Source: Leptobrachium leishanense (Eukaryota; Chordata; Amphibia; Anura; Megophryidae). From it: a DNA stretch of 64,000 nt. The position numbers and the translations under genes were made by a program. Each line of letters starts with the position of its first letter. Position 1 is the first letter of the stretch. The notes under the pieces are model-generated. The model did no database searches. It was not told where the DNA came from and saw nothing but the letters and a program-made list of their open reading frames with translations. Positions 6,486 to 63,015 of this stretch are shown piece by piece. Location of the stretch: NCBI GenBank assembly GCA_009667805.1, contig CM019064.1:271107662-271171661 (forward strand), given 5' to 3'.

Positions 6486-6714
6486 GTCTGACGTCTCCAA
6501 ATCACACACACACACCGCTAGCGGGCGCAGCGCACTCTGTACGTCCGTACTAGAGGTTCTGAGTTCTCGAAAAAATGCGTTCATTTTCCACGGCCGGACT
6601 TTCGTGCGACCGTACTTAGTATATTGGCCGTCATTGCCCGTCATTTGCTGCTAGTGCGGCCGTAATTAAGTGCGCTAGAACGCACGTTAAAAGTGCGCTG
6701 GTCTGACCCCAGCC
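6486..6714 (-). mobile_element. Truncated Harbinger-like MITE (GGCTGGGGTCAGAC family)
   Basis: The right end GGTCTGACCCCAGCC followed by TAA matches, in inverse orientation, the left end of the copies at 31014 and 32272. The internal blocks (GTACGTCCGTACTAG, AAAATGCGTTCATTTT, GGCCGTCATTGCCCGTCATTTGCTGC) recur in those copies. The left end is cut off at about 6486. Confidence 0.7.
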
Positions 6715-6952
6715 TAATTTGAGGGTATGTACATCCAACTCAGGTGAACGGTGTAGGACGTACAGCAGTTTGCAGATGTGCCTCCCACTTGTAAAGGGGC
6801 CAAAGGTAATGGGACAATTGGCTTCTCAGCTGTTCCATGGCCAGATGTGTGATATTCCCTCATTACCCCAATTACAATGTGCAGATAAAAGACACAGAGT
6901 TCATTTCAAGTGTGCTATTTGCATTTGGAATCTGTTGCTGTCAACTCTCAAG

Positions 6953-7987
6953 ATGAGATCCAAAGAGTTGTCACTATCAGTGAAGCAAGCTATCATTAGG
7001 CTGAAGAAACAAAACAAACCCATCAGAGAGATAGCAAGAACATTAGGCGTTGCCAAAACAACTGTTTGGAACATTCTCAAAAACAAGGAATGCTCCGGTG
7101 AGCTCAGCAACACCAAAAGAACCAGGAGCCCACAGAAAACAACTGTGGTGGATGACCGAAGAATTCTTTCCCTGGTGAAGAAAACACCCTTCACAACAGT
7201 TGGCCAGATCAAGAACACTCTCCAGGAGGTAGGTGTATGTGTGTCAAAGTCAACAATCAAGAGAAGACTTCACCAGAGTGAATACAGAGGGTTCACCACA
7301 AGGTGTAAACCATTGGTGAGCCTCAAAAACAGGAAGGCCAGATTAGAGTTTGCCAAACACCTAACAAAGCCTTCACAGTTCTGGAACAAGATCCTATGGA
7401 CAGATGAGACCAAGATCAATTTGTACCAGAGTGATGGGAAGAGAAGAGTATGGAGAAGGAAAGGAACTGCTCATGATCCTAAGCATACCACCTCATCATT
7501 GAAGCATGGTGTTGGTAGTGTCATGGCATGGGCATGTATGGCTGCCAATGGAACTGGTTCTCTTGTATTTATTGATGATGTGACTGCTGACAAAAGCAGC
7601 AGGATGAATTCTGAAGTGTTTCAGACAATATTATCTGCTCACATTCAGCCAAATGCTGCAGAACTCATTGGATGGCGCTTCACAGTGCAGATGGACAATG
7701 ACCCAAAGCATACTGCAAAAGCAACCAAAGAGTTTTTGAAGGGACAGAAGTGGAATGTTATGCAATGGTCAAGTCAATCACCTGACCTGAATCCCATTGA
7801 GCATGTATTTCACTTGCTGAAGACAAAACTGAAGGGAAAATGCCCCAAGAACAAGCAGGAACTGAAGACAGTTGCAGTAGAGGCCTGGCAGAGCATCGCC
7901 AGGGATGAAACCCAGTGTCTGGTGATGTCTATGCATCCCAGACTTCAGGCTGTGATTGACTGCAAAGGATTTGCAACCAAGTATTAA
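6953..7987 (+). CDS. Tc1/mariner transposase, intact (344 aa)
   Basis: Cut-and-paste transposase acting in the nucleus on TA-flanked TIRs. The open frame runs on from upstream, but the Met at 6953 (MRSKELSLSVKQ) is the family start: it gives 344 residues, the normal Tc1 length (~340). Residues 5-50 form the first helix-turn-helix (IREIARTLGVAKTTVWNIL). A second DNA-binding region follows with an Arg-rich hook (NTKRTRSPQK), then the catalytic domain: WTDET (first Asp), MDNDPKHTAK (second Asp) and [15 protein letters not shown] (Glu). All three DD34E residues are present and there are no stops or frameshifts, so the protein could be active. The copy lacks its own 5' TIR because of the MITE junction at 6715. 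What it could still act on is the outer pair of ends of the composite or related copies elsewhere. Confidence 0.92.
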   Translation: MRSKELSLSVKQAIIRLKKQNKPIREIARTLGVAKTTVWNILKNKECSGELSNTKRTRSPQKTTVVDDRRILSLVKKTPFTTVGQIKNTLQEVGVCVSKSTIKRRLHQSEYRGFTTRCKPLVSLKNRKARLEFAKHLTKPSQFWNKILWTDETKINLYQSDGKRRVWRRKGTAHDPKHTTSSLKHGVGSVMAWACMAANGTGSLVFIDDVTADKSSRMNSEVFQTILSAHIQPNAAELIGWRFTVQMDNDPKHTAKATKEFLKGQKWNVMQWSSQSPDLNPIEHVFHLLKTKLKGKCPKNKQELKTVAVEAWQSIARDETQCLVMSMHPRLQAVIDCKGFATKY

Positions 7988-9700: not shown

Positions 9701-10167
9701 CATTAACATGCCCCCGAATATTCACTCAAACGCTCCCTTAAAATACCTCTCTTCACCTGCAATCTAACAGTAGAACTACTTCAACCAGATCCAAAAGACG
9801 GGCCTAGATTTAGTGAAGCCTTATTTGTGGTTATAATTAGAGGCTACTCTTAATATAAAGAGATAAATTAGCCTAATACATTTTAAAAGCTTTCTGTGTA
9901 GATGGGAGTATATGAAAGGCATATATTTGTGTGGAATCTCATGTGTATGCCAGTGTTCCACAAGAGGCCTCTGTTTGAGTGAGACCATAGGTGACTGCCA
10001 ACTTTACGTAATAGAGCCACCTCTGCCTACATCACTAGAATAAAAAAAAGGGTCTGGGGAAGCAAAAGGTAACCTGGGTGATACATCCACAGAACTGCAA
10101 AGGCATTGGTGGCCATTGTTAATGCGTTGAATCTCCTTAAAGAGCGAAGGAGTTGAGTGAATGCTCT
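9701..10167. other. Flank of ERV1, no recognised gene
   Basis: No coding potential with support. Its last four bases (CTCT, 10164-10167) are the left target-site copy of the provirus. Confidence 0.45.
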
Positions 10168-10843
10168 TGTAACCGGAGTCAATCAGGTTCACTTCATTAA
10201 CGGCGCCGGACCAGACACAAGCAAGGATTGTCCAAACACTAGTCTCTTCAGGAAAGGCAAGAGTTTATTGTGTCGTCACACAAGTGCTCACACAGGATTG
10301 AATCGCTTAGAGTGAGCCCCGATTACACAGAGACATGAGGTTTTATGCCCCAAATACATAATTAGGTACATCCCCATTAGCCCACCTCCCTATGACACTC
10401 TATTCTACCCCACGTGGGTTAATACCTCCCATCATTAATTCGAACACAAAGAACATTCCACATATAACTATAAATTGATACACTTCTCGTTAGTTTGACA
10501 GTCTGTGATTTGTTTGTGCTGTCTTTCTCCGGGCAGTGCCTCCCTCCCTATCGGCTATGTTTATTCAGATGGCCTGGGGCCCGGTCTTCTATACTCCTTC
10601 GTCTTTCCGCGGGCCCCACCGACCTTTGAGTCGCTTTTCTCCTCCGTGCCAGGAACAGACAGAGATCTTTCATAAAACTTTAATTGCTTTTCTGCTAATC
10701 TAAACGCATTCCTAAGTTTCTACGTATACCTCATTCTAGTCTCAGCTACAAACCTGTCTATTTATATACAAGTGAACCAATATTCTGAACAAGATGGCCG
10801 CCTGTGTACAATGGCGGCCGTCTTTCAGCCTATTTCCACTTCA
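10168..10843 (-). repeat. ERV1 3' LTR
   Basis: 676 bp. On the coding strand it starts TGAAGTGGAAATAGG and ends CCGGTTACA. A TATA-like CATAAAA lies at 10341-10347 and AATAAA at 10264-10269, about 75 bp apart, marking the U3/R and R/U5 borders approximately. Its U3 start (GGCCGCCATT...GGCGGCCATCTTG) is clearly related to the ERV2 LTRs. It is the twin of 18541-19216 apart from one seen difference. Confidence 0.95.
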
Positions 10844-10853
10844 TTCCCCCCTT
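10844..10853 (-). promoter_or_regulatory. ERV1 polypurine tract
   Basis: On the coding strand AAGGGGGGAA lies directly before the 3' LTR, the expected site and composition of the plus-strand primer. Confidence 0.8.
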
Positions 10854-10902
10854 GGCTCAAGTGTCAGGATCTTTTCCTGGCACTTGTAGCCATTACACTC
10901 CA

Positions 10903-12510
10903 CTATTCTGAAACTACTGAAAAAGGGGGGTTTCTTTCACTGGGAACATACCCTGTGGAATTATCAGTGGTATCTTCTGTGTTTGTGTAGATATCAGTGC
11001 TGTTTTGCACAGTGGCCATAAACATAGCCCTATACGGTATCAGTATCCCTATGATCAAAATCACCACTATCATAAGTATCATGGATCCAATCCTTGAGAT
11101 AAATCGTAAGATAGAACCAAACCATTCTCCCATTGCTCCAAACCCACGGAGCAGATTCCAGCCTTCGGCAGCAATCCTTCTGGCTGTGCCCTGCAACTGT
11201 GCTACCTTCTCCTGATGATCTTGAATTACCTGGTAATAGTTTGGGACTTCGTGTGTAGTGTTTCTGATGAAGGTGCAACATTCATAGTGCATTGTCATTT
11301 CACACAACCCATTCAAGGCCGCACTGATCTGCTCAAGCGCCATTTCATATATCATTTGCACCTTTCGTAACTCACGCATTTCCAGATTCAACAGCTGGAT
11401 ATCCATACTGGTCCTATTCAGAATCTCATCCATCAGATTGACATAGCTATTCAATCTCCTCATCATCTCTCCTCCCCATCCAGTCCATGCTGGCAACCAT
11501 GTCCATATTCGATCCATCTTCGCAAACAATTCTCTCTTTGGTCTTTCAAACACCAGTGGGTACCTAGGGTGCAGTTCCGTGTCTGTGTTTGTGTCTTCTC
11601 CCCTTAGTCTCTGGATTGGGACCAGCTTAGCCAAATAACACATTCCCGTTATTGTTGGTGGTACCCATGTGTAACACACCCTTTCACAGCACACCTGGTA
11701 CCCTCCTGTCACTATAAATGGTGACGAATGTAGTGTTCCCTTTGATATCTCTATCGCAAGGTGTCTCAGCCGTCTCATCATATCCACTGCACCCTGCCTC
11801 CCATTGGTCACATTCCCAATCACCGCCTCTTGGTCTCTAGTGAGTTGCCTGCATCGTATGTATAAATAAATCGCCTTTTGTCCTGCTTTAAATATATAAA
11901 TATATGATGTCCAGTTGAACTGACTTGAGTTACATAACCCACCCTCGTTATTTGTTTCTTTATCTGGTCCTAGTTGAAAACACCATTCTGGTGGATACAC
12001 TGGTCCTATTATGGGGTACCCGGGACTGACTGATTCTGTCTTTTCCCTTTGTGCATCGACAGCATGTATTGTGATATTCCCTGATACAAACATACTCAAA
12101 TTCATTGGAACAGAGGCAAATGGTATATGAATTGTCTCTGGGTGCAGTCTACTACACACCCAGCATGCAGTTTGCCCAGACTTTTTAGCATAGTCATATT
12201 TGAATTGCACAAGTAAATGTCCTCTTGGGTTGGTTCCAGATAGCGCCTCTCGTTTTTGTCTCCACATGGTACGGTTCTCCATCACCGGGTGCGTACTATT
12301 CCAGATATGGGAAATATCCACTTTCCCCACATTGCCCGTACAATTAGAGCATACTCCACGCGAGAGTCCATAAATCAAATTAGCAAAATATAAAATCAGC
12401 ACCACAAATGCCCCGAGTGTCAGAATTCCTTGGGCAATTCTTTTTACAGTCACATAAACCCAATCCCTCCCCACCGGAATTTCAAAAGTAAAAAATTTCT
12501 GGATAATCAA
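10903..12510 (-). CDS. env: ERV1 envelope glycoprotein, long open frame (535 codons)
   Basis: Surface/transmembrane envelope precursor of a retrovirus, made on ER membranes and cleaved in the Golgi. Seen: hydrophobic segment at residues 25-47 (signal region); a CWVC motif at 116-119, like the SU CXXC of gamma-type Env; about ten N-glycosylation sequons; an RPKR cleavage site at 323-326; a helical stretch 365-400 before a CX7CC motif (403-412), one residue longer than the CX6CC of typical gammaretroviral TM; a membrane anchor at about 474-493; and a ~40-residue tail. No stops. The frame begins at a TTG with no in-frame ATG before residue 77, and an ATG-started reading frame at 12482-12703 overlaps it in a different frame, so initiation is unclear: either a one-base frameshift after an acidic leader or a non-canonical or spliced start. 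Annotated as found. Confidence 0.85.
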   Translation of the reverse strand: MIIQKFFTFEIPVGRDWVYVTVKRIAQGILTLGAFVVLILYFANLIYGLSRGVCSNCTGNVGKVDISHIWNSTHPVMENRTMWRQKREALSGTNPRGHLLVQFKYDYAKKSGQTACWVCSRLHPETIHIPFASVPMNLSMFVSGNITIHAVDAQREKTESVSPGYPIIGPVYPPEWCFQLGPDKETNNEGGLCNSSQFNWTSYIYIFKAGQKAIYLYIRCRQLTRDQEAVIGNVTNGRQGAVDMMRRLRHLAIEISKGTLHSSPFIVTGGYQVCCERVCYTWVPPTITGMCYLAKLVPIQRLRGEDTNTDTELHPRYPLVFERPKRELFAKMDRIWTWLPAWTGWGGEMMRRLNSYVNLMDEILNRTSMDIQLLNLEMRELRKVQMIYEMALEQISAALNGLCEMTMHYECCTFIRNTTHEVPNYYQVIQDHQEKVAQLQGTARRIAAEGWNLLRGFGAMGEWFGSILRFISRIGSMILMIVVILIIGILIPYRAMFMATVQNSTDIYTNTEDTTDNSTGYVPSERNPPFSVVSE

Positions 12511-12703
12511 GGGTGGGGGCGGGGCCCCTAAAAAGCACCCTGTGGTTATCCCCCGTTGGCAGGTGGTCAGGGTCTGTGCCCATCAAAACACCCACTTGTT
12601 GATCCTCTGAATCATCAGGGTTAGGATCATTTAGGTGCTCGTGACTGTGGTCTTTGTCAGCTTCAGCCTCAGCGGATTGGTCTCGTTGGCGACGACCTTC
12701 CAT
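12482..12703 (-). CDS. ERV1 env leader frame (acidic, 73 aa), overlaps pol end and env
   Basis: Starts with an ATG (MEGRRQRDQ) inside the last codons of pol, where retroviral env genes usually start, and ends 28 bases into the env frame. It is hydrophilic and rich in Asp/Glu/His (DPNPDDSEDQQ). The most economical reading is that it is the N-terminal leader of Env, now separated from the main env frame by a one-base offset in the G/C-rich run near 12515-12530. Long hydrophilic Env leaders are known in several retroviral genera. It could instead be an independent small accessory frame. No relative in this window retains env for comparison. Confidence 0.5.
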   Translation of the reverse strand: MEGRRQRDQSAEAEADKDHSHEHLNDPNPDDSEDQQVGVLMGTDPDHLPTGDNHRVLFRGPAPTLDYPEIFYF

Positions 12704-13420
12704 GTTAGCTCAGGACTGGCAGCTGCTTTTACTCTGGAGTGATGTATCCACGGGACCACCTCGGCAACCTTTACTGCTATAGGGGTTGATAACAGGACAA
12801 AATAAAAACCTCTCCATTTTGGACCTAGTGGATCATTTTTCCACTCTTTTACCCATCATTACTACCTGATCATTTAGTTTAATTTCTCCCAATGCCCGAA
12901 GGTCCCCCCTTAGTCCATTAATCAGAGGGGTTGGCCGTCCAAACATAAGTTCGTACGGACTTAGCTTCAATTGGGGGGTTGGTCTGCACCTAATGTGCAA
13001 AAGGACTATCGGCAGCAAGTCCAACCAGCCCAGTGACGTCTCTTGGCACAGTTTGGACATCAAAGTCTTTAGAGTACGGTTCATTTTTTTTCAACTTTTC
13101 CCGAACTTTGGGGCCTGTAGGCGGTATGTAGCTTCCAGGTGATGCCCAGTAGCCGGGCAAGTTGTTGCAAACAGTTCTGGATAAATGCAGGGCCATTGTC
13201 TGACCCTATCTCGCGTGGAAGCCCGTAACGTGGTATTATTTCTTTCATCAGGCTCTTTACCACTTCTGTAGTCTTTTCAATTCTTGTTGGGAAGGCTTCC
13301 ACCCATCCTGTCAAAGTGCACACCATCACTAGTAAATAGTTGTATCCTTTGCAGGGTGGCAGCACTGTAAAGTCTATTTGTAATAATGCCCTTGGGGATA
13401 GCCCGATGGGCCTGTTCTCA
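12627..13420 (-). pseudogene. pol: ERV1 integrase: catalytic core and C-terminal domain, frameshifted, no N-terminal zinc domain
   Basis: Integrase joins viral DNA to host DNA. On the minus strand: RPIGLSPRALLQIDFTVLPP (first catalytic Asp, near 13378), then YNYLLVMVCTLTGWVEAFP, then GSDNGPAF (second Asp, near 13205), then YRPQSSGKVE (Glu region, near 13090). At a run of eight A (minus strand; 13084-13092) the frame shifts, and MNRTLKTLMSKLCQE continues in another frame. The C-terminal part reads LGPKWRG and PWIHHSRVKAA and ends at about 12627, typical of gammaretroviral integrase. The HHCC zinc-binding N-terminal domain that should lie between RNase H and the core is absent. The OGFr-like segment occupies exactly that place. 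Confidence 0.85.
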
Positions 13421-13972
13421 AAATAACAAATCCTGTCTGTCTTGTGAATCTCTTACTGCTGGTATGAAAAAGTTCATTACACTTTTCTTCATTCTTGGCA
13501 GTCTGTTCTTGATAAGGATCTCCTTGAGGAAGAACCTCACCAGTGGGACTTGATATTCTTCTGCTCCCAATTCTCCCAGACTGTGCAGTATTCGTGTGAT
13601 TCGTAGATTATTGTGAGAATTGATTGTCAAATTTTCAAAACGTGACGCGAAATTTTCTGCTCGTTCAACTTCAGTTATTTCTTTGTCTTCCTCCTCCCCC
13701 ACTATTTTTACGCCGAAGAATTTCAGCATCATCTTGTAAGCTCTGCGTAGTCTTTGCTGAACTTCTGAGGTGTTGATCATTAGACGTGTTTCTTGCGGGT
13801 TTAGGGGAGTAGAGTAGAAATTCCGGCCTTGTGTCCTTGTTGGAAAAAGCCATTGGATATAATCATGATTGAGTTCTAACAGTTCATAATCATCTTGCTA
13901 TTTGTTCAATATTATTTCAATGAACTCCCCGTGGGGTTCAAATTTTGTTTTTTTTAAATTCATATAGAACTC
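13418..13972 (-). pseudogene. Captured opioid growth factor receptor (OGFr) N-terminal domain within ERV1 pol
   Basis: About 184 codons on the minus strand read as the conserved N-terminal domain of OGFR/OGFRL1 proteins, a host family of nuclear-envelope-associated opioid growth factor (Met-enkephalin) receptors. Signature stretches in order: GEFIEIIL (near 13920), LNHDYIQWLFP (near 13860), RAYKMMLKFFGVKIV (near 13730), NLTINSHNNLRITRILHSLG (near 13600), VPLVRFFLKEIL (near 13530). Exons are joined without introns, as expected if taken from spliced RNA. One in-frame TAG (13900-13898) stands where the family has a Trp. A TAA (13975-13973) separates it from the RNase H frame, with which it is in phase. 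After its stop (13418) the integrase core continues in another frame. It replaces the integrase N-terminal domain. The OGFr reading is very firm; capture by the virus, rather than later insertion, is inference from its clean fit inside two near-identical LTRs. Confidence 0.88.
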
Positions 13973-14875
13973 TTAATTTGGCATGGAAGATTGAGGCTCT
14001 TGCTTGCAGATCAATACTTTAGCTTGAGCTTCTGTTTGCGGTGGTGGTTTCGCAGCTGCTTTTGCGGCCTCGTCTGCGCGTCTGTTACCTTTTGGAATTT
14101 CATCATGGCCTTTTTGGTGGCCACGGCAGTGCCTGATGCTGACAGCACTTGGTTTCCACACTGCTTCCAGGAGGGCCGTGATTTCTGCAGCATATTTAAT
14201 TTGTTGTTCTGAAGACGTGAGTAGGCCTCTTTCTTTTTAGAGTGCACCATGTGCATGGACTGTCATAAAAACGTATTTGGAGTCTGTATAGATATTTACT
14301 CTTTTGCCTTCAGAAATTTCAAGGGCTCTGGTTAAGGCTGTTATTTCAGCTAGTTGTGCTGATGTATGGCCTGGCAGTGGCTTTGCTTCGATGACTTCTT
14401 CTGTTGAGACTACTGCATAGCCGGAGACTTTCTTCCCATCATCCATGTAGCTGCTTCCATCAGTGAATAGCTGTAGATCGTATTTGTCTAGGGGTACGTC
14501 TTTCAAATCCGGCCTGCTACTGAACCAGTAACCTCCTGTCACATCCAGCAGAGCCTTGACAGCGTGGGGCACCTTGACATGAAGAACTTGTCCAAGGGTC
14601 AGTTTGTCTGCTTCTGCTATTAGCATTGCGGTGGCAGCCACTGCTTTCAGGCATGGGGGTAGGCCGCAGGCCACAGGGTCGAGTTGCTTGGAGCTCCTGG
14701 TCTTTGGTTGGGGTATGCGGCACACTGCTTCTTTTCTTTCTGCCCCCAGTGCACGTTTGGTACCTGTTAACTGGAAGCCCAGGTATTTTACACTCTGTTT
14801 ACATATTTGTGCTTTCTTTTTAGACACTCTGTAACCTGCTTGGCTTTCTGGGATATAATATTGTCTTAGAGCCAC
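13973..14875 (-). pseudogene. pol: ERV1 RT remnant (connection) and RNase H
   Basis: Minus strand from 14875. A short RT start (QYYIPES) is fused at about 14840-14844 to the post-catalytic part ([26 protein letters not shown]). Then comes the connection region and RNase H: LFTDGSSYMDDGK (Asp), HTSAQLAEITALTRALE (Glu), VNIYTDSKYVF (Asp), and, after a frameshift near 14200, GNRRADEAAKAAAK (Asp). The RT palm with its YVDD loop, present in ERV2 at 46372, is deleted here. The break lies in a GCCAA shared by both flanks in ERV2, which fits copy-choice deletion during reverse transcription. RNase H residues look conserved but the frame is broken. Confidence 0.85.
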
Positions 14876-15110
14876 CGTGTTGCGCCGGGCTGTGATTCAA
14901 CTCATCTGGGCGGGTTTTCCTCCGCCCCCACCTCAGGAATTCCAAGGAGTAGTGCGTGCGGGGACAACAGGCAGAGTAGGTGCCGTGCGCCATTCTTCTT
15001 CCTTTGACATAACTACTGCGATTTTCACAGATTGGGGGTTGTGCGGGCTGGCTGGATTATACTACCGAACAAAACTGCCACTCTCCGGCAGGTTTAATTG
15101 AACGTGACCC
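14876..15110 (-). pseudogene. ERV1 start of RT region (matches ERV2 44836-45110)
   Basis: Minus strand resembles ERV2: the CTGCCGGAGAGTGGCAG, ATAATCCAGCCAGCCCG, GAAGAAGAATGGCGCAC and TGGCTCTAAGACAATATTA blocks align with bases 44851-45110 of ERV2, which precede the polymerase fingers. Small deletions leave several frames, so it is non-functional. It anchors the right edge of the RT deletion and the left edge of the AT-rich block. Confidence 0.75.
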
Positions 15111-15189
15111 CCGGAAAAAAAAAAAAAAACATAATTTGGGCTTGCAATTTGCAAAAAATATCCCGCCCCAGGAGCTGGATGGGACATTC

Positions 15190-15885
15190 GGGCATATACA
15201 TATACACATTATATAAATAATATTCTCAGAAATATTTTCCCATAGCCCAAAACAGACTCTTAATACTACATCAAAAAAAAAAAAAACAATAAATCATTCC
15301 ATCAAAAATCAAACAAAAACATACCTTTTAAAAACAGTAACCATATTTCAATTTGTTAATAAATTTCATATTTTGGTAGACAATTTTGTATACCATTACA
15401 TACTTATTATTGTTTAAATGTAATAATATAAAAACCAGGAATCCCTTTTCTTTTCTTTTTTTTTTTTTAATTTAATTCTAGCTCTGAACAAAACTAAAAC
15501 TTTCGGACTAATATTTAACACAAAGTATAAACATATATCTTGCACTCAGACTTCAGACAAATATTCTATTGTAACACACATTAAAATTAGCTAAGCATAG
15601 TACGCTGCACAGATACACAAAGGGTTAGCTATCAGAGAGCAAAGAAAAAACATCCTCCCTTGGCATATTTTACTGACTCCCTCCCTTCCCCCTTCTCTCT
15701 TGCAAACAGTCTGTCAGAAGCACTGCCTATACACCAGAGACGACGCTCAATCTCAACTTTTAATTGAACAGTTTAATAATCAATTAAAAAACACAATCGG
15801 ACAAAATCAGTCTGAATCACACACACACAAACTATACAGCACCGCAACCATCTCACTCCGTAAAATATTAATTTATTTTATGCTC
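15190..15885 (-). other. AT-rich foreign block between ERV1 protease and RT
   Basis: ERV2 has ~80 bp between the protease GATATTATGGG(T/A)GCA and the ATGCCTGAATGTCTGATCC block. ERV1 has ~690 bp here instead. It is strongly AT-rich, has poly(T)/(A) runs at 15270-15285 and 15457-15470 and no coding potential seen. It is unlike the rest of the provirus in composition, and looks like an untranslated host or repeat sequence taken up by the virus. Origin not recognised. Confidence 0.6.
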
Positions 15886-16050
15886 CCATAATATCAACCT
15901 TATTTCCCATTGGAGATGCAATTTGCTTTGTTACAACAGAATATTCGGCACCTGTATCAACTATAAAAACTTCATCTTTATTTCCCACTCTCATTGTGAC
16001 CGTGGGCTCGTGGCTACCGAGCGGGATGGGCCCAGATCCCCGTCAATATA
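15886..16050 (-). pseudogene. pro: ERV1 aspartic protease (fragment)
   Basis: The minus strand reads VTMRVGNKDEVFIVDTGAEY SVV with the active-site DTGA triad at 15947-15961 intact, followed by NKVDIMGA and then a stop at the border of the AT-rich block. A retroviral protease is ~100-125 residues; only its first half is present, so it is truncated. ERV2 has the matching region at 44557-44680, with DTG altered to DTQ. Confidence 0.75.
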
Positions 16051-16105
16051 CATCCTGCCCTTCAAATGATGTCCCCGCCAGTCCCACAAACCCCGCTCCA
16101 TTCCT

Positions 16106-17418
16106 TCACTTCTTTATCTCCTCTAAATCCCGGTTATGATACACCTTATTAGCGATCTCAACTAATTCACTAATACCTTTCCCCAAAAACCCATCTATTC
16201 TCTGTATTTTGTTCCGTATATCCCTCTTTGACTGACCCACAAACGAGGAGTTAATTAACCTCTGATTCTCCGTTGTTTCAGGATCAATAGGACTATACAT
16301 CCTGTACGCATTCAGCAATCTCTCTAGAAACGCACTTGGGGATTTTTTTTTTTTTTTTTTTTAATCTCTTGCATCACATCTGCTATTTTTTTCCATGTTT
16401 GTGGGTTTCTTCCCTCCCGCTTTAACACCCATAATTACAGCAGTTCTGTATGTCTGCAGATGGGCAACTCCTTCAACTGTATTGTACGGCCATTTAGGAT
16501 CTGTTTTGGGGTAATGTTCCTCTGCCCATGCTTCTGGATGAGGCTTAGCATCTGCTACAGCTTGGGCGAGTAAAATCTTTCGCGCGCTACTATTTATCCG
16601 GGCTCTTTCCTCTGTGGTAAACATTGTCAACATTAATTGCTGACAATCTGCCCATGTGGGGTTATGTGTGAGCATAACTGACTCTATCATACTGGCCACT
16701 GCTGCGGGATTTGTGGAATACAGTGGTGTGTGTGTTTTCCAATTAAAAAAATCCGTTGTCGTGAACGGGACATATGTGTATTGCATTGGCCCTGGATTCC
16801 CATCCGCCAAGGGGGGGGCCTGGCACCTCTCGCAAAGGCAACTGCATAGCATTCTTGTAGGGATTGTGTTGGTACGGATCCCGGGGTTTATATATACTAT
16901 TCGCTGCGCGTGTGGTAACTCCCTGGTTCTCATCTTCCTCTTTATCATCACTATTCCCGTGGGGCACTAATTTATATACACTCCCATCGGGCATCTCAAT
17001 CTTCTCTGGCTGCCCCATAACATAATAGATAGAACGGGGGCAAAACATCACTCTCTCTCTCTTTCTATTATTTTGGGGGTCCTGTTTCTTATTTCTCCCC
17101 GCTATCATTATAAAATAACTCTTATTTTTAATACAATATCTCCATATATCTATATACGGGTATTCTTCAGGATATCTGTACTGCTCTGTAACCTGGGAAT
17201 ATACCTTCTGTACCAACTCCGGGTCTATTGACCCCTGCTCTGGCCATCCTGGGACTAATAACGGCCACACAACTGTACACATTACTTTTAATTTCTCTTT
17301 TGTCAATTCTACACCATAATCATACGTTTTTATATAATGCTTCAAAATCTCGCACCATATATTCTAGGGGCATCTTACCCTCCTTTACCTTCTTGGGCTT
17401 AGATGACCTGTTACCCAT
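16106..17418 (-). pseudogene. gag: ERV1 gag (matrix and capsid), frameshifted, no zinc knuckle
   Basis: Structural polyprotein. It starts at an ATG at 17418 (MGNRSSKPKK), with the Gly-2 of an N-myristoylation signal and basic residues for membrane binding. Matrix continues at 17345-16743 after a one-base shift (YDYGVELTKEKLKVM, YPYIDIWRYC). A proline-rich linker follows, then capsid at 16951-16361 (FNWKTHTPLYSTNPAAVASM, TWADCQQLMLTMFTTEERAR, AEEHYPKTDPKWPYN), and the major homology-type region (AFLERLLNAYRMYSP) after a run of ~19 T (plus strand; 16343-16362) that breaks the frame. Capsid ends with FLGKGISELVEIANK. The Cys-His nucleocapsid box seen in ERV2 at 44304 is deleted, so the RNA-packaging domain is missing. 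Frame breaks appear at a minimum of three places. Confidence 0.85.
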
Positions 17419-18517
17419 TGTCACTCTTGAAAACAATACTTTTTGCGATACAATTATCTTATTTCAATAACAGTTAAAATCTACAGTCTGATACTTCAGT
17501 CAACAATTTATCCGCATCCACATACGCTTCCCCCTTCAGTAGCCGACTGCAGTCGCCTGAGCCGAAACCGTACGTTCCAGGGTCCACTCTCGAATTTGCT
17601 TCCTCGCGGAGCGAGTAGGCGCACGTTCACTCACAGCACTCAAGTCAATTCATTCACAACACATTCCGTATCAGATACTTTCAGCATAATATAGAACATA
17701 TATCACTTCAACTCTTTCCATTAGCCGAGGACGTATTCCCTCCTTAGTGGCTCCTTATACCCCGTAATTTGAACTCTAACTCTTGACTGCTTGTGGCTAT
17801 GTGCACCCCGTTCCTTGTCTACACTTCCGTCTGCAATTCCAATCTGCTTTATGGATAATCTACCCACTCAGCACCACTATCTCTGCAGCTATCGTTGGCT
17901 TCACTATAAGCCCTTGTCACTATACGACGTACACACTAGGCACTGACTCAGGCTCTCAGCCCAGTCACAGAAAAATCCTCCTCCTTTCCCGTTTACCCAC
18001 GTGGTGAAGCTCTATTTACAAACACTGAACTATGCAACTCCACGCAGCTACTTTCTCCCTCTCATACAGAACTACCCTTTGATTGGCATTCAATTCCCCC
18101 GAATCCAGACGCCCGCTAGCCACTCTGGCTCCTTAGCAATGTCAGCGCTACCAGCGGCGGGAAAGATATGCCAATAGGATGGTGGCCATCGCATCCTCTT
18201 ATCCGTCTATCGCAGTCGGACGTTTCCCTTAGATACAGGTATTTCCTTTAGACATACAAAACATAGAAGACACGTTACCTATCGCCGGCGCTGCTTGCTG
18301 TTTCCTCAGACTCGTTGGTGTCCCAGTTTTCCCGGGTCAGGGGGGTCTGTTTGGGACGAGATGAGGTCCACTGTACAGGAAATCCTGCTTGGCGCCTGCA
18401 GATGTCAGCTCACCTTCAACGGGCGCCCCCAACCATCGGGATTCTGGCACTGCTGCAGTCAAGCGCCGCACTGTGTTCAGCAGCCGTTGCCTGTGTCTTG
18501 GCAAAAGGCCCGTTATC
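17419..18517 (-). promoter_or_regulatory. ERV1 5' leader (packaging-signal region)
   Basis: ~1.1 kb between primer site and gag, similar in length to the ~1.0-kb leader of ERV2. No long frame is supported. Gammaretroviral leaders of this kind hold the splice donor and RNA packaging signal. Neither was pinned down here. Confidence 0.5.
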
Positions 18518-18536
18518 CCGGCTATCGAGACCCCAG
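18518..18536 (-). promoter_or_regulatory. ERV1 primer-binding site (divergent)
   Basis: On the coding strand, five bases after the LTR end (TTTTC), TGGGGTCTCGATAGCCGG appears. ERV2 has a classic tRNA-Pro site here. ERV1 shares TGGGG, CTCG and CCGGGAT but differs in the middle, as though three bases had been inserted. The cognate tRNA is not recognised. Confidence 0.6.
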
Positions 18537-18540
18537 AAAA

Positions 18541-19216
18541 TGTAACCGGAGTCAATCAGGTTCACTTCATTAACGGCGCCGGACCAGACACAAGCAAGGA
18601 TTGTCCAAACACTAGTCTCTTCAGGAAAGGCAAGAGTTTATTGTGTCGTCACACAAGTGCTCACACAGGATTGAATCGCTTAGAGTGAGCCCCGATTACA
18701 CAGAGACATGAGGTTTTATGCCCCAAATACATAATTAGGTACATCCCCATTAGCCCACCTCCCTATGACACTCTATTCTACCCCACGTGGGTTAATACCT
18801 CCCATCATTAATTCGAACACAAAGAACATTCCACATATAACTATAAATTGATACACTTCTCGTTAGTTTGACAGTCTGTGATTTGTTTGTGCTGTCTTTC
18901 TCCGGGCAGTGCCTCCCTCCCTATCGGCTATGTTTATTCAGATGGCCTGGGGCCCGGTCTTCTATACTCCTTCGTCTTTCCGCGGGCCCCACCGACCTTG
19001 GAGTCGCTTTTCTCCTCCGTGCCAGGAACAGACAGAGATCTTTCATAAAACTTTAATTGCTTTTCTGCTAATCTAAACGCATTCCTAAGTTTCTACGTAT
19101 ACCTCATTCTAGTCTCAGCTACAAACCTGTCTATTTATATACAAGTGAACCAATATTCTGAACAAGATGGCCGCCTGTGTACAATGGCGGCCGTCTTTCA
19201 GCCTATTTCCACTTCA
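18541..19216 (-). repeat. ERV1 5' LTR
   Basis: 676 bp, twin of 10168-10843. TATA-like CATAAAA at 18714-18720 and AATAAA at 18637-18642 on the minus strand. This is the promoter-bearing LTR of the provirus. It is followed on the plus strand by CTCT, the second copy of the target duplication. Confidence 0.95.
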
Positions 19217-19355
19217 CTCTCTTTCAAGATGAACCACCATCTGGAGCCGCACATGCAACTAAGCTTAAATCAATGGTTCTTTTAATAAAAATAAAAAAAA
19301 CTGGTTCTTGGTTCTACCTGAAGCTCATGAAATTATGGAGCAGATTATTAGAAAC

Positions 19356-19976: not shown

Positions 19977-20942
19977 CATTTTTAGTAACTCTTTTAATTT
20001 TTGATAGAGACAAAAGGGGGGTTATGCAGTAAGGGGTGAACTTGGAATCAAATTTCACTATAGGAGCTATTTCGTGGCAGTCTATTCACTAAGCGGTCAA
20101 TTCGCCAAATACTGGCGAACTGACAGCGAAATACGGTGCAGTTTGCCACCAGCAAAATTGTCCCATAGAAAAGTAATGGTTAATCCATTCAGAGACCGCC
20201 GAACTGCACCGAAAGGTCAGTGAAATGCCCAGATTCAGTGGTTCCGTCCGAAAGGTTTAAAACAGGAGCATTTTTTCTTTCTTCTGGCAACCTAAAGTAT
20301 AATCAAAAGGTTATATTATAAAAGTTTTTTTTTTTTTAAAGTTTTCATTTGCCTCACAAACACACTCTGTCCCGTCTCATTTTGCGGGGTTGCGGATTTG
20401 AGCCCAGAGCGTGGTTACACAAACTGAGAGAAGCAGGTAAGTGGGGTTTGACCAGAAATAAAGATTTATTAAATGAGGAAACAGAAGTAAACCAGGTAGG
20501 GGACACTGGATAAATAACAACAAGTATAGGAGCTGGCTGGGTGAGACCCTATATACACAGGACAGGGTATATTGAGCAGATGGGATAGGAAGGGGTGGAC
20601 AGGACACTGAATAGCACAATAGGGCTAACAGGACAGGCATTGGACTGGACACTGAATAAACAAATAACACAATAAGGGTTAATTGAACAGAAATGAAGGC
20701 ACAGGTAAACTAAAGACACTTAATGGATAAACAGAGGGCGGAGGACCAGGAGACACAGAGGGCAAAAGGAATAACAATATCAAGCGTGGTATCAGAAGGG
20801 GAATGGTCAGATCAAGCATAGGTATTGGCAGGCAGTAGGCAGAGGGTGGTCAAAGTCCAGAGCAGAAGGTCATACACGGGAGGTCAATCACTATACGGAT
20901 CTGGAGCAGTGATAGGAGTAGCAAATAAGAGTCCAGGAAGGA
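19977..20942. other. Repeat-like flank of the minisatellite
   Basis: No supported gene. 20380-20940 is purine-rich with repeated AGGACA/GGACACTGGA motifs and looks like part of the same large repeat unit that contains the minisatellite. Its far side, near 22927, has TGTCACGGTC on the minus strand, an LTR-like beginning, but no matching second end was found. Confidence 0.35.
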
Positions 20943-22585
20943 GGATTGCAGACAGGAGGCAATGGAGGGTCACGACGGGTACTGCAGACAGGAGGCAATG
21001 GAGGGTCGCGACGGGTACTGCAGACAGGAGGCAATGGAGGGTCGCGACGGGTACTGCAGACAGGAGGCAATGGAGGGTCGCGACGGGTACTGCACACAGG
21101 AGGCAATGGAGGGTCGCGACGGGTACTGCAGACAGGAGGCAATGGAGGGTCGCGACGGGTACTGCAGACAGGAGGCAATGGAGGGTCGCGACGGGTACTG
21201 CAGACAGGAGGCAATGGAGGGTCGCGACGGGTACTGCAGACAGGAGGCAATGGAGGGTCGCGACGGGTACTGCAGACAGGAGGCAATGGAGGGTCGCGAC
21301 GGGTACCGCAGACAGGAGGCAATGGAGGGTCGCGACGGGTACCGCAGACAGGAGGCAATGGAGGGTCGCGACGGGTACCGCAGACAGGAGGCAATGGAGG
21401 GTCACGACGGGTACCGCAGACAGGAGGCAATGGAGGGTCACGACGGGTACCGCAGACAGGAGGCAATGGAGGGTCACGACGGGTACCGCAGACAGGAGGC
21501 AATGGAGGGTCACGACGGGTACCGCAGACAGGAGGCAATGGAGGGTCACGACGGGTACCGCAGACAGGAGGCAATGGAGGGTCACGATGGGTACCGCAGA
21601 CAGGAGGGTCACGATGGGTACCGCAGACAGGAGGGTCGCGATGGGTACTGCAGACAGGAGGCAATGGAGGGTCGCGATGGGTACTGCAGACAGGAGGCAA
21701 TGGAGGGTCGCGATGGGTACTGCAGACAGGAGGCAATGGAGGGTCGCGATGGGTACTGCAGACAGGAGGCAATGGAGGGTCGCGATGGGTACTGCAGACA
21801 GGAGGCAATGGAGGGTCACGATGGGTACTGCAGACAGGAGGCAATGGAGGGTCACGATGGGTACCGCAGACAGGAGGCAATGGAGGGTCACGATGGGTAC
21901 TGCAGACAGGAGGCAATGGAGGGTCACGATGGATACCGCAGACAGGAGGGTCACGATGGTACTGCAGACAGGAGGCAATGGAGGGTCACGATGGGTACCG
22001 CAGACAGGAGGCAATGGAGGGTCGCGATGGGTACTGCAGACAGGAGGCAATAGAGGGTCGCGATGGGTACTGCAGACAGGAGGCAATGGAGGGTCACGAT
22101 GGGTACTGCAGACAGGAGGCAATGGAGGGTCACGATGGTACCGCAGACAGGAGGCAATGGAGGGTCGCGATGGGTACTGCAGACAGGAGGCAATGGAGGG
22201 TCACGATGGGTACTGCAGACAGGAGGCAATGGAGGGTCACGATGGGTACCGCAGACAGGAGGCAATGGAGGGTCACGATGGGTACCGCAGACAGGAGGGT
22301 CACGATGGGTACCGCAGACAGGAGGGTCACGATGGGTACCGCAGACAGGAGGGTCACGATGGGTACCGCAGACAGGAGGGTCACGATGGGTACCGCAGAC
22401 AGGAGGGTCACGATGGGTACCGCAGACAGGAGGGTCACGATGGGTACCGCAGACAGGAGGGTCACGATGGATACCGCAGACAGGAGGCAATGGAGGGTCA
22501 CGATGTGTACTGCAGACAGGAGGCAATGGAGGGACACAATGGGTACCGCAGACAGGAGGCAATGTAGGGTCACGATGGATACTGT
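20943..22585. repeat. Minisatellite: 36-bp unit with an interspersed 27-bp variant
   Basis: Tandem units of the form GGTACYGCAGACAGGAGGCA plus ATGGAGGGTCRCGAYG (36 bp). A 27-bp form lacks the nine bases CAATGGAGG; it occurs near 21600-21640, once near 21945, and as a run of eight or so at 22285-22475. Variant bases (C/T in TACYGC, A/G in GTCRCG, C/T in CGAYGG) fall in blocks, showing local amplification. Both unit lengths are multiples of three and stop-free in most frames, so very long open frames appear on both strands. These are not genes. Confidence 0.95.
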
Positions 22586-23422
22586 AGCTATGAAGGGTCT
22601 CAGACAGGATACAGCGATGAGGGGTACCAAAGGATGCAGCGAAGAGTGCAGCAAAGAGGGGTCACAACAGGATGCAAGTAGCAGACAGATGATGAGCTAG
22701 CACACAGGTCAGACAAGCAATGCGACTTCTAAAGAAGATGCAGAAGCCTTGACTGAGGGGTGAGGCATGATTATATGGGCAGTCCAGGCCTAGCCCACAC
22801 CTGAGGCTGGAGAGGTGAGTGGAAACCTGAAATGGATCCCTAAGTGCCTGGACAACAGACCAGGCAGAGGTAAGATCTGGACTGGAACGGTACCTTACTT
22901 GCCCTTCCTCCGGCGAAGACCGTGACACTCTGGGCTACTACACAGCCGAACAAAGCTGCTAGCATGTGTGTACCATAACCTAAAGCAACAACCAGGAGAT
23001 AAACAGAGAATGCATGCACATAAAGGGAAAAAACAGCCATATGGACACAATTAGCAGAATAATTTTATTTTATAATAAATAGGACAGTTGCACTTCTGTA
23101 GGAGAAAATTACAGGGAATAGGTTTGAAATAAAAACTGCAAATACTTGTTACCTACACCCTTGTTATGCATACCAGCAGTGCTAAAGAATAAAAACAAAG
23201 CAAACGTGATTGTGAACAGATATGAAGTAACATGCTAAAATATTCCGAAAGGGGAGATACATGTGGGTTTTTTTTTTTTTGACAATGGAAAACGCTTTAT
23301 TTGCAAGCTAATGAAAAACCCATAAAATGTTTTCTAAATATGGATCAATATGGTGTCTGGAGATGGCGGAGAATATAAACCGCCCCAATGGGTGGAAGAC
23401 TGTGCACCAAGCACCTAGGTTA
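22586..23422. other. Non-coding stretch right of the minisatellite
   Basis: Decayed minisatellite edge to about 22690, then unique-looking sequence with a poly(T) run near 23270. No exon recognised. Confidence 0.4.
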
Positions 23423-40388: not shown

Positions 40389-40996
40389 TAAGGGAATCAG
40401 GCCAGAAATAGGTCGCCATGATGTTCATGGCAGCCATCTTGAGCAGAACTTTGGTTCACGTAAGTGTAAATAGCGAGAAATAGTTGAATTAGAAGTGTGT
40501 CTTTGCATAGAAGTCAGGCATTCCAGATATTCTCTGGCAGAGCAATTAAAATAAACAAGATCCGGCCAAGAGTGGGCAGCAGAGACAGGACGTTGATTTA
40601 GTAACAACAAGGCCACCGAGCTAGAGAACAGAACAAAAGCCTGCCTTAAGACCATCTGCAGTCTTATCAGAAGAAATTGTAAACAAACTAACAGGGCAAG
40701 GAAGAGGCAGGATCTGGCTTAGTGTAAATTACCCAATTGTCAAAATACAATGTGAAAGCTGCCAATTTACTGCCAATTTGTGGAATGTCTTTGTATTCTG
40801 TAAGGGGAAGGTACAGACCCACGTGGGGTAGGAGTGTGTCACCGTGGGGTGGGCTAATTTGGATGTACCTGATTATTCACTGTATAAAATGCTATGTTGG
40901 AATGTACTCGGGGCTCAGTCTTTGCGATTCAATCCTGTCTGAGCGTTGGTGACGTCACAATAAAGTACGCCTTTCCTGAAGAGACTTGTGTCCAAG
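40389..40996 (+). repeat. ERV2 partial LTR (lacks end of U5)
   Basis: Aligns with the full LTR at 40997-41692 from AGGGAATCAG to GAAGAGACTTGTGTCCA, then is cut and followed at once by the TG of the full LTR. AATAAA at 40959-40964. It lacks a 24-bp block (near 41400) present in the full LTR. Either an older solo LTR hit by ERV2 or a recombination product. Confidence 0.85.
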
Positions 40997-41692
40997 TGAA
41001 AGGGAATCAGACCAGAGACAGGCCGCCATGATGTCCCGGGCGGCCATCTTAACCAGGACTTTGGTTCACGTGAATATACATAGCGAATATTAGCTGAATG
41101 AAGACGAGTTTGCATAGATTCTTTGGAATTCCTTAAACTAACAGGCAGAGCAATTAAATTAACAAGATCCGAGCAGACGCTGGCAGAAGTGACAGGTTGG
41201 AGATTAGTTACATCAAGGTCACAGAGCTAGTGGACAGAACAATGATGAATGTGAAGCCAGCTGGGGCCTTATCAGTAATATGCAATAAACAAGTTCCAGG
41301 GAGGTAGGCACAAATAGAGAATTTAACACTCGGCCAGATCCTAATTGTCAAAATACTGTGAAAGCTGCCAATTTATTGCCAATATGTGGAATGTCCAGCT
41401 TTCTATGTTTCTATGAATGTCTTTGTATTCTGAGAGGGGAAGGTACAGACCTACGTGGGGTGGGATAGGGTCACCGTGGGGTGGGCTAATTGGGATGTAC
41501 CCGATTATCTATTCAAGGTATAAAATGCTACATATGGATGTAAACGGGGCTCAGTCTTTGCGATTCAATCCTGTCTGAGCATCGGTGACGTCACAACAAA
41601 GTTCGCCTTTCCTGAAGAGACTCGTGTCCAGTCAGTCATTGTCCGTGCCGGGCTGGTTTTCTCCCGAGTGAGCCAGGTGGATTCCGGTAACA
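40997..41692 (+). repeat. ERV2 5' LTR
   Basis: 696 bp, TGAAAGGGAATCAGACC to GATTCCGGTAACA. TATA-like GTATAAAA at 41519-41526. The poly(A) signal is mutated to AACAAA near 41594. The U3 start with the GCCGCCAT...GCGGCCATCTT pattern is shared with ERV1. Confidence 0.9.
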
Positions 41693-41696
41693 TTTC

Positions 41697-41714
41697 TGGG
41701 GGCTCGTCCGGGAT
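41697..41714 (+). promoter_or_regulatory. ERV2 primer-binding site, tRNA-Pro
   Basis: TGGGGGCTCGTCCGGGAT, four bases after the LTR, is the 18-base tRNA-Pro site known from murine-leukaemia-type gammaretroviruses. Confidence 0.95.
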
Positions 41715-42709
41715 CTGACCGCTTCCGGTTCGGCAACGGCTGCTGGACAGCATAGCGGTTGACTGCAGGTATGAGTGATCCCGAAGGTTGGGCGTCCGTT
41801 GAAGGTGAGCTGACATCTGCAAGGCGCCAAGCGGGATTTCCCATAACGTGGACCTCGACTCGTCCCAAACGGACCCCCGACCCGGGAAGCTGAGACGCCA
41901 TCGAGTCCGAGGAAGCAGCGATTGGAAAAGGTACCGTATTGTTTTGTAAACTGGTAGAGAGTAAGACGCCCGACCATAGTTGGGTAAGGGGACCCCCGTA
42001 CATGGTCTCATTGGTATACTGGACCCACCGCCAAAAGCACGGGAACCAGTGAGTTGCACCTCAATGACTACTGGTTAGCGCGTGACTGGACCCGGTGGGC
42101 TGGATATCAATTTGGTTTGTTTTTAATTGAATTGAGGTGTTGTATTGCCACGTGGTGCAGTGTTGATATTGTGATTTTCAGAACTGCACGTGTGTAAAGA
42201 GGAGGAGAGATTTCTGTGGGTGGGCTGAGAGCCCCGCATGAGGGTTATTGCATATCCCAGTTAGATTAAGGGGCCGGCAGGAGAAGCTGGGCCATTGGTA
42301 GCTGCAGATTAAGGGTGCTTGGGTGGGCTAAGAGTCCCGGAGCAATAGGAGAAGCAGACGTGTTGCTAGGAACGGGATGTGCATAGCTAGATAGAGAGAG
42401 AGAGAAAAATAAGATCGAGAAAGTCAGAATATTGTGTTGATTTCTGCTGAATGTATCTGGTATAGTACGTGTTGTGACTGCTGAGAGTGATGTGAGTGAA
42501 CGTGCGCCTACTTGCTTAGCAAGGAAGCAAATCTGAGAGTGGACCCTCAAAGTGCATTTCCGGACTGAGGCGACTCAACCGGTCACTGACGGGGGAAGCG
42601 AATACGTCACGATTGAACTGTTGATTGAAACACCAGACTGTCAATTTAAATTGGTTCGGTCAAAAGTGCTATTTGCATTGTGAAGAAATTACTGCTAAAA
42701 AGGGTAATC

Positions 42710-44165
42710 ATGGGTAACGAGTCATCAAAACGAAAGAAGGCGAAGGATGGTGAAACACCTCTAGAATATATGGTGCATAATTGGTATAATTATAATATAT
42801 GGTGCTGTACGAAAAGGACCACTATGGTGTAGAATTAAGTAAAGAAAAATTACAAATTTTGTACACTATAGTCTGGCCAATATTAGTCCCCGAGTGGCCA
42901 GGGCAGGGATCTATGGATCCAGTGCTTATACAGAAGATGCAGTCCCAGATCACCGGGAGATATGGACACCCAGACCAGTACCCATATATAGATATCTGGC
43001 GGTACTGCATGAGAGATAAGAGACATTTTGTGATACTAGCAGGTCAAAATAAGAAAAGGGTGTCCCCAGAGAATATTAAATTTGAAGATGAATGTAAACC
43101 GGTGTTGGTAGAGCATCCCGAGGAGTCTGATTCTCTCCCACTGCCTTATCCGTCCTGCTACGGGGCGGCCCGGCAGGCTTTGGATGCCGCGGCTGCGCAG
43201 GCGGGGTTGAGGGGGCAGGCTGCTGCTAGTCTTTCGCTTGCACCCTCGGCCCCGGCTGGTAGTGGCGGAATGGGGGAGGCTGAGGGGGGAGAAGATGGTG
43301 ATCTGCCCGCCGATAAAATCGAGATGCCAGATGGGACAGTATATCGATTAGAAACTCCACGGAGGGAGGGGGTGATGCAGACCCCAGAGTTGTATCCCGT
43401 GCTGATAATAATATTGTTAAGCCCCGAGTAATGTATCAGCATAATCCCAGTAAACTACAACTCCCATTACGAGACGTGCCGGGTCCCCTGCTGGAAAATG
43501 AGGAGCCAGGGCAAACACAGTTCACGTAAGTCCCGTTCAACACCACAGATTTGTTTAATTGGAAGACCCATACCCTTCCTTACTCTGCAAATCCTGCAGC
43601 CGTGGCTAGCATGGTAGAATCTGTCATGCTCACGCACAATCTCACATGGGCAGACTGTCAGCAGCTACTGCTGACAATGTTTACTACTGAAGAAAGAGCT
43701 CGTATAAATAGCAACGCCCGCAAACATTTATTCGCCCAAGCAGTTGAGGACCGTAAACCAAATCCAGAAGCATGGGCCGAGGAACACTACCCTAAAACTG
43801 ATCCCAAATGGCCATACAATACTGAAATGGGTATAATTCATCTTCAGAGTTACTGGGCGGCAGTGTTAATGGGAATTAAAGCAGGAGGAAAGAAGCCCAC
43901 AAACATGGGAAAAATAGCCGAAGTAATGCACGACCCAAAAGAGTCCCCGAGTGCATTCTTAGAGAGATTGCTAGATGCATTCAGGATGTATAGTCCGATG
44001 GTTCTCCGTTGCCTCTGGATCTAACGACTAGTTAACTCCTCCTTTGTGAGCCAGGCCCAGAGAGATTTACGCAACAAGATACAGAGAATGGATGGGTTTT
44101 TAAGCAAAGGGATTAGTGAATTAGTGGAGATCGCTAATAAAGTTCATCATAACAGAGATCTATAA
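42710..44165 (+). pseudogene. gag: ERV2 gag (matrix, capsid), broken
   Basis: ATG at 42710 (MGNESSKRKK) keeps the Gly-2 myristoylation signal. The frame stops after ~40 codons and matrix goes on at 42799-43431 (YGVELSKEKLQIL, YPYIDIWRYCMRDK) with a Gly/Ala-rich linker that is longer than in ERV1. Capsid is at 43551-44024 (FNWKTHTLPYSANPAAVASM, EEHYPKTDPKWPYN) and the major-homology-type region SPSAFLERLLDAFRMYSP is complete, without the poly(T) expansion of ERV1. A frameshift follows at about 44000 and capsid ends near 44165. Several stops make it non-coding. Confidence 0.85.
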
Positions 44166-44238
44166 GAAAAGTGGGAGGAGATACGAAGACAGAGAGGGCA
44201 GACCGGAGTAGTTGCCATAAACATGGGAAGAGGTAGGG

Positions 44239-44436
44239 GTGGGCATGATGGAGACAGGTGGCCAAGGCAAGGGTGCCCCCCGGAATGGATTGGGGCACAA
44301 TCAGTGCGCATTCTGTAAAGGTGAAGGTCACTGGCGCAGGGACGGTCCCGTATTACTTGTGAAAAATGGGGGGGGGGCACAGTGGCCAGGCATAGTCGGG
44401 GACGTCAAATGGTCAAGTGACAAACGGGAGGTATGA
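44239..44436 (+). pseudogene. gag: ERV2 nucleocapsid remnant with one damaged zinc knuckle
   Basis: The frame reads GHNQCAFCKGEGHWRRDG at 44292-44345. The CX2CX4H part of a CCHC box is intact but the fourth ligand (Cys) is Gly. It is basic and Gly-rich, as nucleocapsids are. This region is completely absent from ERV1. Confidence 0.75.
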
Positions 44437-44529
44437 GAGAAATGATGCCGCTGATCCTGGGTTTGTGGGTTTGGCGGGAACTTCTTTTGAAGGGCAAGGT
44501 GCATATTGACACAGACCTGGGTCCAGCCC

Positions 44530-44690
44530 ACTCGGTAATCACGAGCCCACGGTCATTGTAAGAGTGGGGGATAAAGATGAAGTTTTCATGGTTGACACAC
44601 AGGCTGAACATTCTGTTGTAACGCAGCCAATTGCACCACCGGTGGGTAATGAGGCGGATATAATGGGTGCAATGGGTGTATCTGCTAAGT
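44530..44690 (+). pseudogene. pro: ERV2 protease fragment, active site altered
   Basis: VIVRVGDKDEVFMVDTQAEH SVV: the DTGA active-site triad is DTQA (44593-44604), a loss expected to inactivate the enzyme. The downstream part runs into the RT linker through stops. Confidence 0.75.
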
Positions 44691-44801
44691 ATCCTTTTCT
44701 CGCATCACGTAAATGCAGCCTGGGAGGACACAATGAAGAACACCAATTTCTATACATGCCTGAATGTCTGATCCAACTCCTGGGGGGACATTCTCTGTAA
44801 A

Positions 44802-50502: not shown

Positions 50503-52111
<1,609 letters not shown>

Positions 52112-61399: not shown

Positions 61400-63015
<1,616 letters not shown>

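Follow-up and report, generated by a model that had tools for sequence, protein, structure and literature searches.

An OGFr domain inside the pol gene of an endogenous retrovirus

The stretch studied here, 64,000 nucleotides of the genome of Leptobrachium leishanense (contig CM019064.1, positions 271,107,662 to 271,171,661; hereafter the window), contains an endogenous retrovirus (ERV) bounded by paired long terminal repeats (LTRs), the features of which are collected in Table 1. Its pol region carries OGFr_N, the domain of opioid growth factor receptor (OGFR) proteins: the open reading frame (ORF) at 13418-13897 (159 aa) matches the PF04664 profile with an E-value of 1.8e-57 and 194.6 bits (cut-off 22), and the stretch homologous to the OGFr domain of a longer relative runs from 13981 to 13421. 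The block has the same orientation as the provirus, with RNase H (PF00075) upstream and the integrase core (PF00665) downstream, all on the minus strand, which bears out the domain and the position given in the initial annotation, made from the letters of the window alone. The intron-free reading of about 184 codons proposed there holds for the domain but not for an open frame, as stops lie at 13973-13975, at the RNase H junction, and at 13898-13900, within the domain. Judged by the sequence of its capsid and integrase C-terminus, its LTRs and its short target-site duplication, the element is a class I (gamma-type) ERV; the gammaretrovirus-type features are the Gag_p30 match in the window (E = 1.1e-30) and an MLVIN_C match (E = 1.8e-17) in the database protein P0024. 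The pol gene of the window copy is dead: stops interrupt RNase H (14237-14239), the RNase H-OGFr junction and OGFr, and three large parts are without a match. Most of the reverse transcriptase (RT) is among the unmatched sequence, roughly residues 104-264 and 332-407 in a comparison with the database protein P0039.

The full arrangement is found in database proteins. P0024 (L. leishanense, 882 aa, from a 49-member cluster) contains RNase_H (residues 102-243), OGFr_N (265-468), Integrase_H2C2 (526-581), rve (597-691) and MLVIN_C (799-852), and P0039 contains RT, RNase H and OGFr. Eight viral database proteins were scanned, and seven matched PF04664 with 225-249 bits; P0039, which ends within the domain, scored 155.5. 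Out of 19 Leptobrachium proteins among 33 matches, 16 had a retroviral Pfam domain besides OGFr_N. Among the matches listed (in one search, the best 120 of 327), all those with retroviral domains came from L. leishanense; the clade of OGFr-carrying retroviruses is thus confined to Leptobrachium as far as sampled, and other frogs may carry it.

The structure predicted for one such protein (P0026) has a mean pLDDT of 67.5 and models RNase H and integrase poorly. Its OGFr domain lies mostly above pLDDT 90 and takes a helical fold that includes a single short loop of two strands. An alignment of 35 host, viral and metagenomic rows, 13 of them viral, was reported to contain 16 invariant columns. 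A comparison of the window OGFr ORF with the sequences of solved structures gave nothing beyond one chance-level match.

Recurrence of the arrangement across the genome

The whole genome (3.54 Gb) was searched, and the copy numbers given here are lower bounds. Using the OGFr ORF as query, 5,748 first-look candidates were obtained, of which the best 150 were scored, a sample that is biased toward OGFr similarity. These had 96-100% identity to the window ORF; in 145 of them the domain had no stop, and the surrounding unspliced open frames reached 1,440 aa. A sample free of that bias was drawn with the RT of a second ERV present in the window, which gave 17,372 first-look candidates with 150 scored; the region downstream of RT was taken for 40 of the 149 other matches, namely the 20 best and 20 hand-picked further down the list. 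OGFr was present after RNase H in 37 of the 40, or in 36 of 39 if L057 and L064, which are identical over 2,790 bases, are one place assembled twice. As to the three copies without OGFr, L060 had a match to RNase H only, L067 had no match, and L084 had RNase H with a weak integrase-like match on the opposite strand. The OGFr piece covered at least 150 residues in 29 of the 37 loci. The same arrangement therefore recurs in the genome, and the block is not missing from sister proviruses, the outcome that had been named as speaking against a capture.

The proposal that OGFr takes the place of the integrase HHCC domain did not survive. P0024 carries both, and since database proteins combine OGFr with HHCC, the domain was inserted into pol and not swapped for HHCC. 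The integrase N-terminal region was likewise matched in 32 of the 37 OGFr loci, and in 30 the match spanned 60 or more of its 94 residues. Its absence from the window copy is due to a deletion (Table 1), which is also present in L002, a locus on another chromosome where 3.48 kb are collinear with the window copy (98.65% identity), while L005 and L006 have in common a different deletion at the same spot. That deletions are common to separate loci indicates that the deleted forms spread after the deletion, presumably by being mobilised in trans. By sequence, the window copy is a member of a deleted subfamily, and the loss of HHCC is a trait of this copy and its subfamily, not of the OGFr insert. 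In another Leptobrachium protein, P0025, OGFr runs straight into env-like sequence, either because of a further internal deletion within this family or because the gene model made the join.

Donor gene and phylogeny

A host OGFR gene was located within G000:C12:9495500-9505400, where the OGFr_N region lies in five pieces, which implies four introns (the exact splice sites were not checked one by one). In the viral loci the domain is a single-frame piece in 27 out of 28. The intron-containing donor suggested by the initial annotation is therefore present in the same genome. Its product has 92% identity over 218 columns to the L. leishanense OGFR protein P0070, which may be a paralogue.

The phylogeny was built from 60 domains, 27 viral and 33 host. 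All viral rows form one clade (100/99), which is sister to two Leptobrachium OGFR rows (100/99). The approximately unbiased (AU) test rejected both a grouping of the Leptobrachium hosts with Pelobates excluding the virus (p = 0.0017) and a grouping of the virus with Pelobates (p = 0.00097), alternatives that were chosen after the first tree had been seen. In an earlier tree without the diverged copies the virus again stood beside Leptobrachium OGFR (96/84).

The diverged proviruses also indicate the direction of transfer. OGFr precedes integrase in all 12 of them, with RNase H upstream as well in 9, and the host N-terminus was matched in 4 (E of 0.001 or better): L031 and L037 keep this acidic segment in frame, from the RNase H tail to the domain, L032 has it with a broken frame, and in L029 it lies about 1.3 kb upstream. 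The host N-terminus kept in old proviruses points from host to virus, and to a first capture that began near the host start codon. At the other end, matches in the genome to the host OGFR protein mostly stop at residues 275-278 of 290.

Several other OGFr_N-like sequences were seen. Two host proteins of poison frogs, P0057 of Phyllobates and P0059 of Ranitomeya, have two tandem OGFr_N domains. Metagenomic records contain OGFr_N-like proteins of about 150-260 aa (P0009-P0023), as well as one in which OGFr_N is fused to a calcineurin-type phosphoesterase domain (P0055), and the large uncultured phage record LR756511.1 has an OGFr_N-like match at 178710-179066. Given these metagenomic and phage proteins, the domain may far predate vertebrate OGFR.

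Age of the capture and selection on the domain

The element had been described as young. This is correct for the insertion in the window, in which the two LTRs show a single difference over 676 sites, but not for the capture itself: synonymous divergence (dS) of OGFr between lineages is about 0.5 to more than 2 (14 copies, 6 with stops), which makes the capture old. In the same 14 copies, the ratio of nonsynonymous to synonymous divergence (dN/dS) between lineages was 0.08-0.28 in the computable pairs, saturated pairs giving no value; for a single recent pair, both of them broken copies, the ratio was 0.50. For the RT-selected sample, the median pairwise dN/dS of OGFr was 0.149 (interquartile range 0.106-0.237; 433 pairs from 30 of the 40 copies, the other 10 being left out because pieces were absent or short), while the neighbouring RNase H (38 copies), integrase N-terminal domain (30) and integrase core (29) had medians of 0.079, 0.084 and 0.075. 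OGFr is under purifying selection, with roughly half the constraint seen in the enzymatic domains beside it.

Weighing the explanations

Very probably, a gamma-type retrovirus took up a spliced host OGFR mRNA once, long ago, and the insert was kept as an extra Pol protein. The capture of a spliced OGFR-type mRNA, already proposed from the window alone, is upheld by the profile match, the recurrence among the RT-selected copies, the split host gene, the tree and the host N-terminus in older proviruses. The block could instead be a recent processed pseudogene that landed by chance in this one provirus, which would suit its lack of introns and its stops; we give this virtually no credence, as it is refuted by the recurrence at the same place, by database proteins in which RNase H, OGFr and integrase share one frame, and by purifying selection, and by eye no poly-A tail or separate duplication is seen at the block borders. 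Several independent captures might have given rise to the different OGFr lineages. Lineages A and B are only about 56-58% identical in OGFr, the linker to RNase H is not the same in lineage B, and branches are longer in OGFr than in integrase; yet the viral rows form a single clade against all 33 host rows, OGFr stands before integrase in every one of the 12 diverged copies, and no viral lineage is nested among other host OGFR genes in the rows sampled. The groups L030 with L032, L031/L035/L037, A and B moreover recur in the integrase tree, with weak support. Repeated capture is thus highly improbable.

It could also be argued that OGFr is a passive spacer, a harmless passenger hitch-hiking with pol, given that it evolves faster than its neighbours and more often carries stops, and that even a passenger read in frame must avoid stops because integrase lies downstream. 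Selection for an open frame alone would not, however, hold dN/dS at 0.08-0.28 over a dS of up to more than 2, and the invariant columns and the confidently predicted fold of the domain also speak against this possibility, which we regard as quite unlikely.

Some observations weigh against a single, functional capture. No RNase H-integrase joint without OGFr was found among the 40 RT-selected copies, so that the state before the capture is unseen, and the AU test on the earlier tree, without diverged copies, did not reject the alternatives (p 0.08-0.18), leaving the donor unsettled there. The database proteins are possibly gene models that skip breaks, which makes their full length weaker evidence than open DNA frames. 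The rate of evolution of OGFr is roughly double that of the adjoining domains. Among the RT-selected copies, stops were present in 10 of 30 OGFr pieces; the corresponding counts are 5 of 38 (RNase H), 5 of 30 (integrase N-terminal domain) and 8 of 29 (integrase core). The branch of lineage B (P0040/P0041) is 0.59 in OGFr and 0.14 in integrase, about four times as long, which suggests a burst of OGFr change in that lineage; together with the faster evolution, it means that the role of the domain may be dispensable or changing. A structural comparison of the OGFr domain with the PDB returned no significant relative and no functional clue.

Organisation of the provirus and other features of the window

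The coordinates of the provirus are given in Table 1. The long open frame downstream of pol had no match in the Pfam scan. About 600 bp of A/T-rich sequence at approximately 15200-15880, in the protease-RT gap, are missing from the second ERV and are probably an insertion within the first provirus. This second, related ERV lies on the plus strand at 40776-46547; its gag p30 is 76% identical over 144 residues and its RT is similar, and it is broken past RT, with no OGFr inside the window. A minisatellite with periods of 36 bp and 18 bp occupies 20820-22700, where several frames are open (592 aa, 581 aa). Transposase frames of the Tc1/mariner type were recognised by eye at 6707-7987, 48215-48914, 50693-51577 and 61902-62662, one of them uninterrupted (426 aa).

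Table 1 Features of the OGFr-carrying provirus, in window coordinates.
Feature	Position	Strand	Remarks
Provirus	10168-19216	minus	9,049 bp; bounded by paired LTRs
Target-site duplication CTCT, left copy	10164..10167		4 bp
3' LTR	10168..10843	minus	676 bp; one mismatch with the 5' LTR
Putative polypurine tract	10844..10853	minus	adjoins 3' LTR; inferred from sequence
Open frame, 559 aa	10903..12582	minus	uninterrupted; env-like from position and by eye
Integrase 3' part and C-terminal remnant	12634..13090	minus	broken frame
Integrase core ORF	13081..13452	minus	PF00665, E = 1.5e-17
Deletion junction	13413..13421	minus	OGFr end, linker and integrase HHCC gone (P0024 residues 452-590, about 411 nt)
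OGFr_N domain, very probably captured from the host	13418..13981	minus	PF04664, E = 1.8e-57; last ~19 residues gone
RT tail and RNase H	13976..14896	minus	two ORFs (14237-14896, 13976-14236) split by a stop; PF00075, E = 3.3e-15 and 9.9e-8
RT remnants	14657..15079	minus	
Protease remnant	15878..16042	minus	RVP PF00077, E = 2e-4
gag capsid ORF	16361..16966	minus	Gag_p30 PF02093, E = 1.1e-30
gag matrix ORF	16743..17363	minus	Gag_MA PF01140, E = 3.2e-8
Putative primer binding site	18517..18535	minus	starts TGG, 5 nt inside 5' LTR; inferred from sequence
5' LTR	18541..19216	minus	676 bp; pairs with 3' LTR
Target-site duplication CTCT, right copy	19217..19220		4 bp

Relation to known systems

A carried host growth-control gene is what this virus has in common with the acutely transforming retroviruses, in which the capture of an oncogene usually comes at the expense of viral genes and does not last long, and with walleye dermal sarcoma virus, whose cyclin is a separate accessory gene. 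Unlike these, OGFr is an old and widespread domain of pol. With host OGFR (P0070 of Leptobrachium, P0123 of Pelobates) the virus shares OGFr_N and, in some old proviruses, also the acidic N-terminus, whereas the host gene is in pieces and the protein, in Pelobates P0123, continues into a long C-terminal half absent from the virus.

As to position, the closest likeness is to the dUTPase of non-primate lentiviruses (FIV, EIAV, visna, CAEV), which is described as being encoded downstream of RNase H and upstream of integrase and as arising from Gag-Pol by proteolysis (PMC4531489). Both are extra in-frame domains with RNase H before and integrase after, but dUTPase is an enzyme in another retrovirus genus, whereas OGFr is a helical domain derived from host OGFR in a gamma-type ERV. 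Pfam scans of the window ORFs and the viral database proteins found OGFr_N and no dUTPase, so that only the location is dUTPase-like. As to origin, crocodilian ERVs have captured the mRNA of KIT-ligand (CrocERV29) and nectin3 (CrocERV31), and, as far as the accessible part of that paper goes, they resemble the OGFr virus in the spliced host mRNA, the position of the viral copies as sister to the host gene and the purifying selection, and CrocERV29 also in that no ERV domain was lost (PMC4299795). According to the same text, KIT-ligand is an additional ORF and nectin3 replaces env, while OGFr is fused inside pol; OGFr is furthermore kept in several deep lineages and in 37 of the 40 copies sampled. 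In the accessible parts of the literature searched, which was one open-licence library, these crocodilian ERVs are the nearest published parallels and an OGFr-carrying retrovirus is not reported. A survey of 2004 vertebrate genomes lists L. leishanense among the threatened species with ongoing retroviral invasion, and OGFR is not mentioned in the accessible main text (PMC10435555). Host-gene capture itself is known; what is new here is that the captured part lies fused within pol and has been kept throughout a deep clade. Judging from general background and the papers cited, it is rare for a captured host gene to be retained inside pol over the long term.

Proposed origin, function and significance

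Under a single capture, a gamma-type retrovirus whose hosts were Leptobrachium toads, or ancestral to them, would have packaged and recombined with a spliced OGFR mRNA, taking a part that began near the start codon and stopped where the OGFr_N domain ends. Joined in frame to pol, after RNase H and before integrase, this piece would have cost the virus no domain and been retained by the virus lineage, some branches of which, including that of the window copy, would later have shed the host N-terminus. Amplification to a very large family may then have proceeded both autonomously and through deleted copies. By analogy with the dUTPase of non-primate lentiviruses, OGFr would be made within Gag-Pol, enter the particle at Pol stoichiometry and be either freed by the viral protease or left joined to a neighbour.

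That OGFr was kept intact for so long suggests that the virus uses a host growth-control protein. OGFR has been described as a growth-restraining, nuclear-associated receptor. A viral OGFr without the C-terminal half of the host protein might compete with host OGFR and so lift its brake on the cell cycle; the retention of the conserved domain without that half fits a competitor, and we put this forward tentatively, as the part of the proposal of which we are least sure. Lifting the brake would help a gamma-type virus if dividing cells were needed. As the main alternative, OGFr might have nothing to do with cell growth and aid integrase in the manner of a chromodomain, helping the pre-integration complex to reach the nucleus or chromatin or to choose target sites, a role for which its place directly before the integrase N-terminus and the nuclear association of OGFR can be invoked, although we think it rather unlikely. 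The competitor reading in its full form is somewhat doubtful: a gamma-type clade, confined to Leptobrachium as sampled, with a permanent, particle-delivered OGFr Pol protein that competes with the host receptor and overrides cell-cycle control.

Many Leptobrachium proteins named as OGFr-containing are retroviral, which should serve as a warning in annotation. Thanks to the large record of copies, the donor in the same genome, the intermediate forms and the measurable selection, capture, trimming and retention can be followed directly as successive steps, and the viral copies constitute a natural selection record for OGFr_N, a domain for which the window ORF gave no sequence relative among solved structures above chance level.
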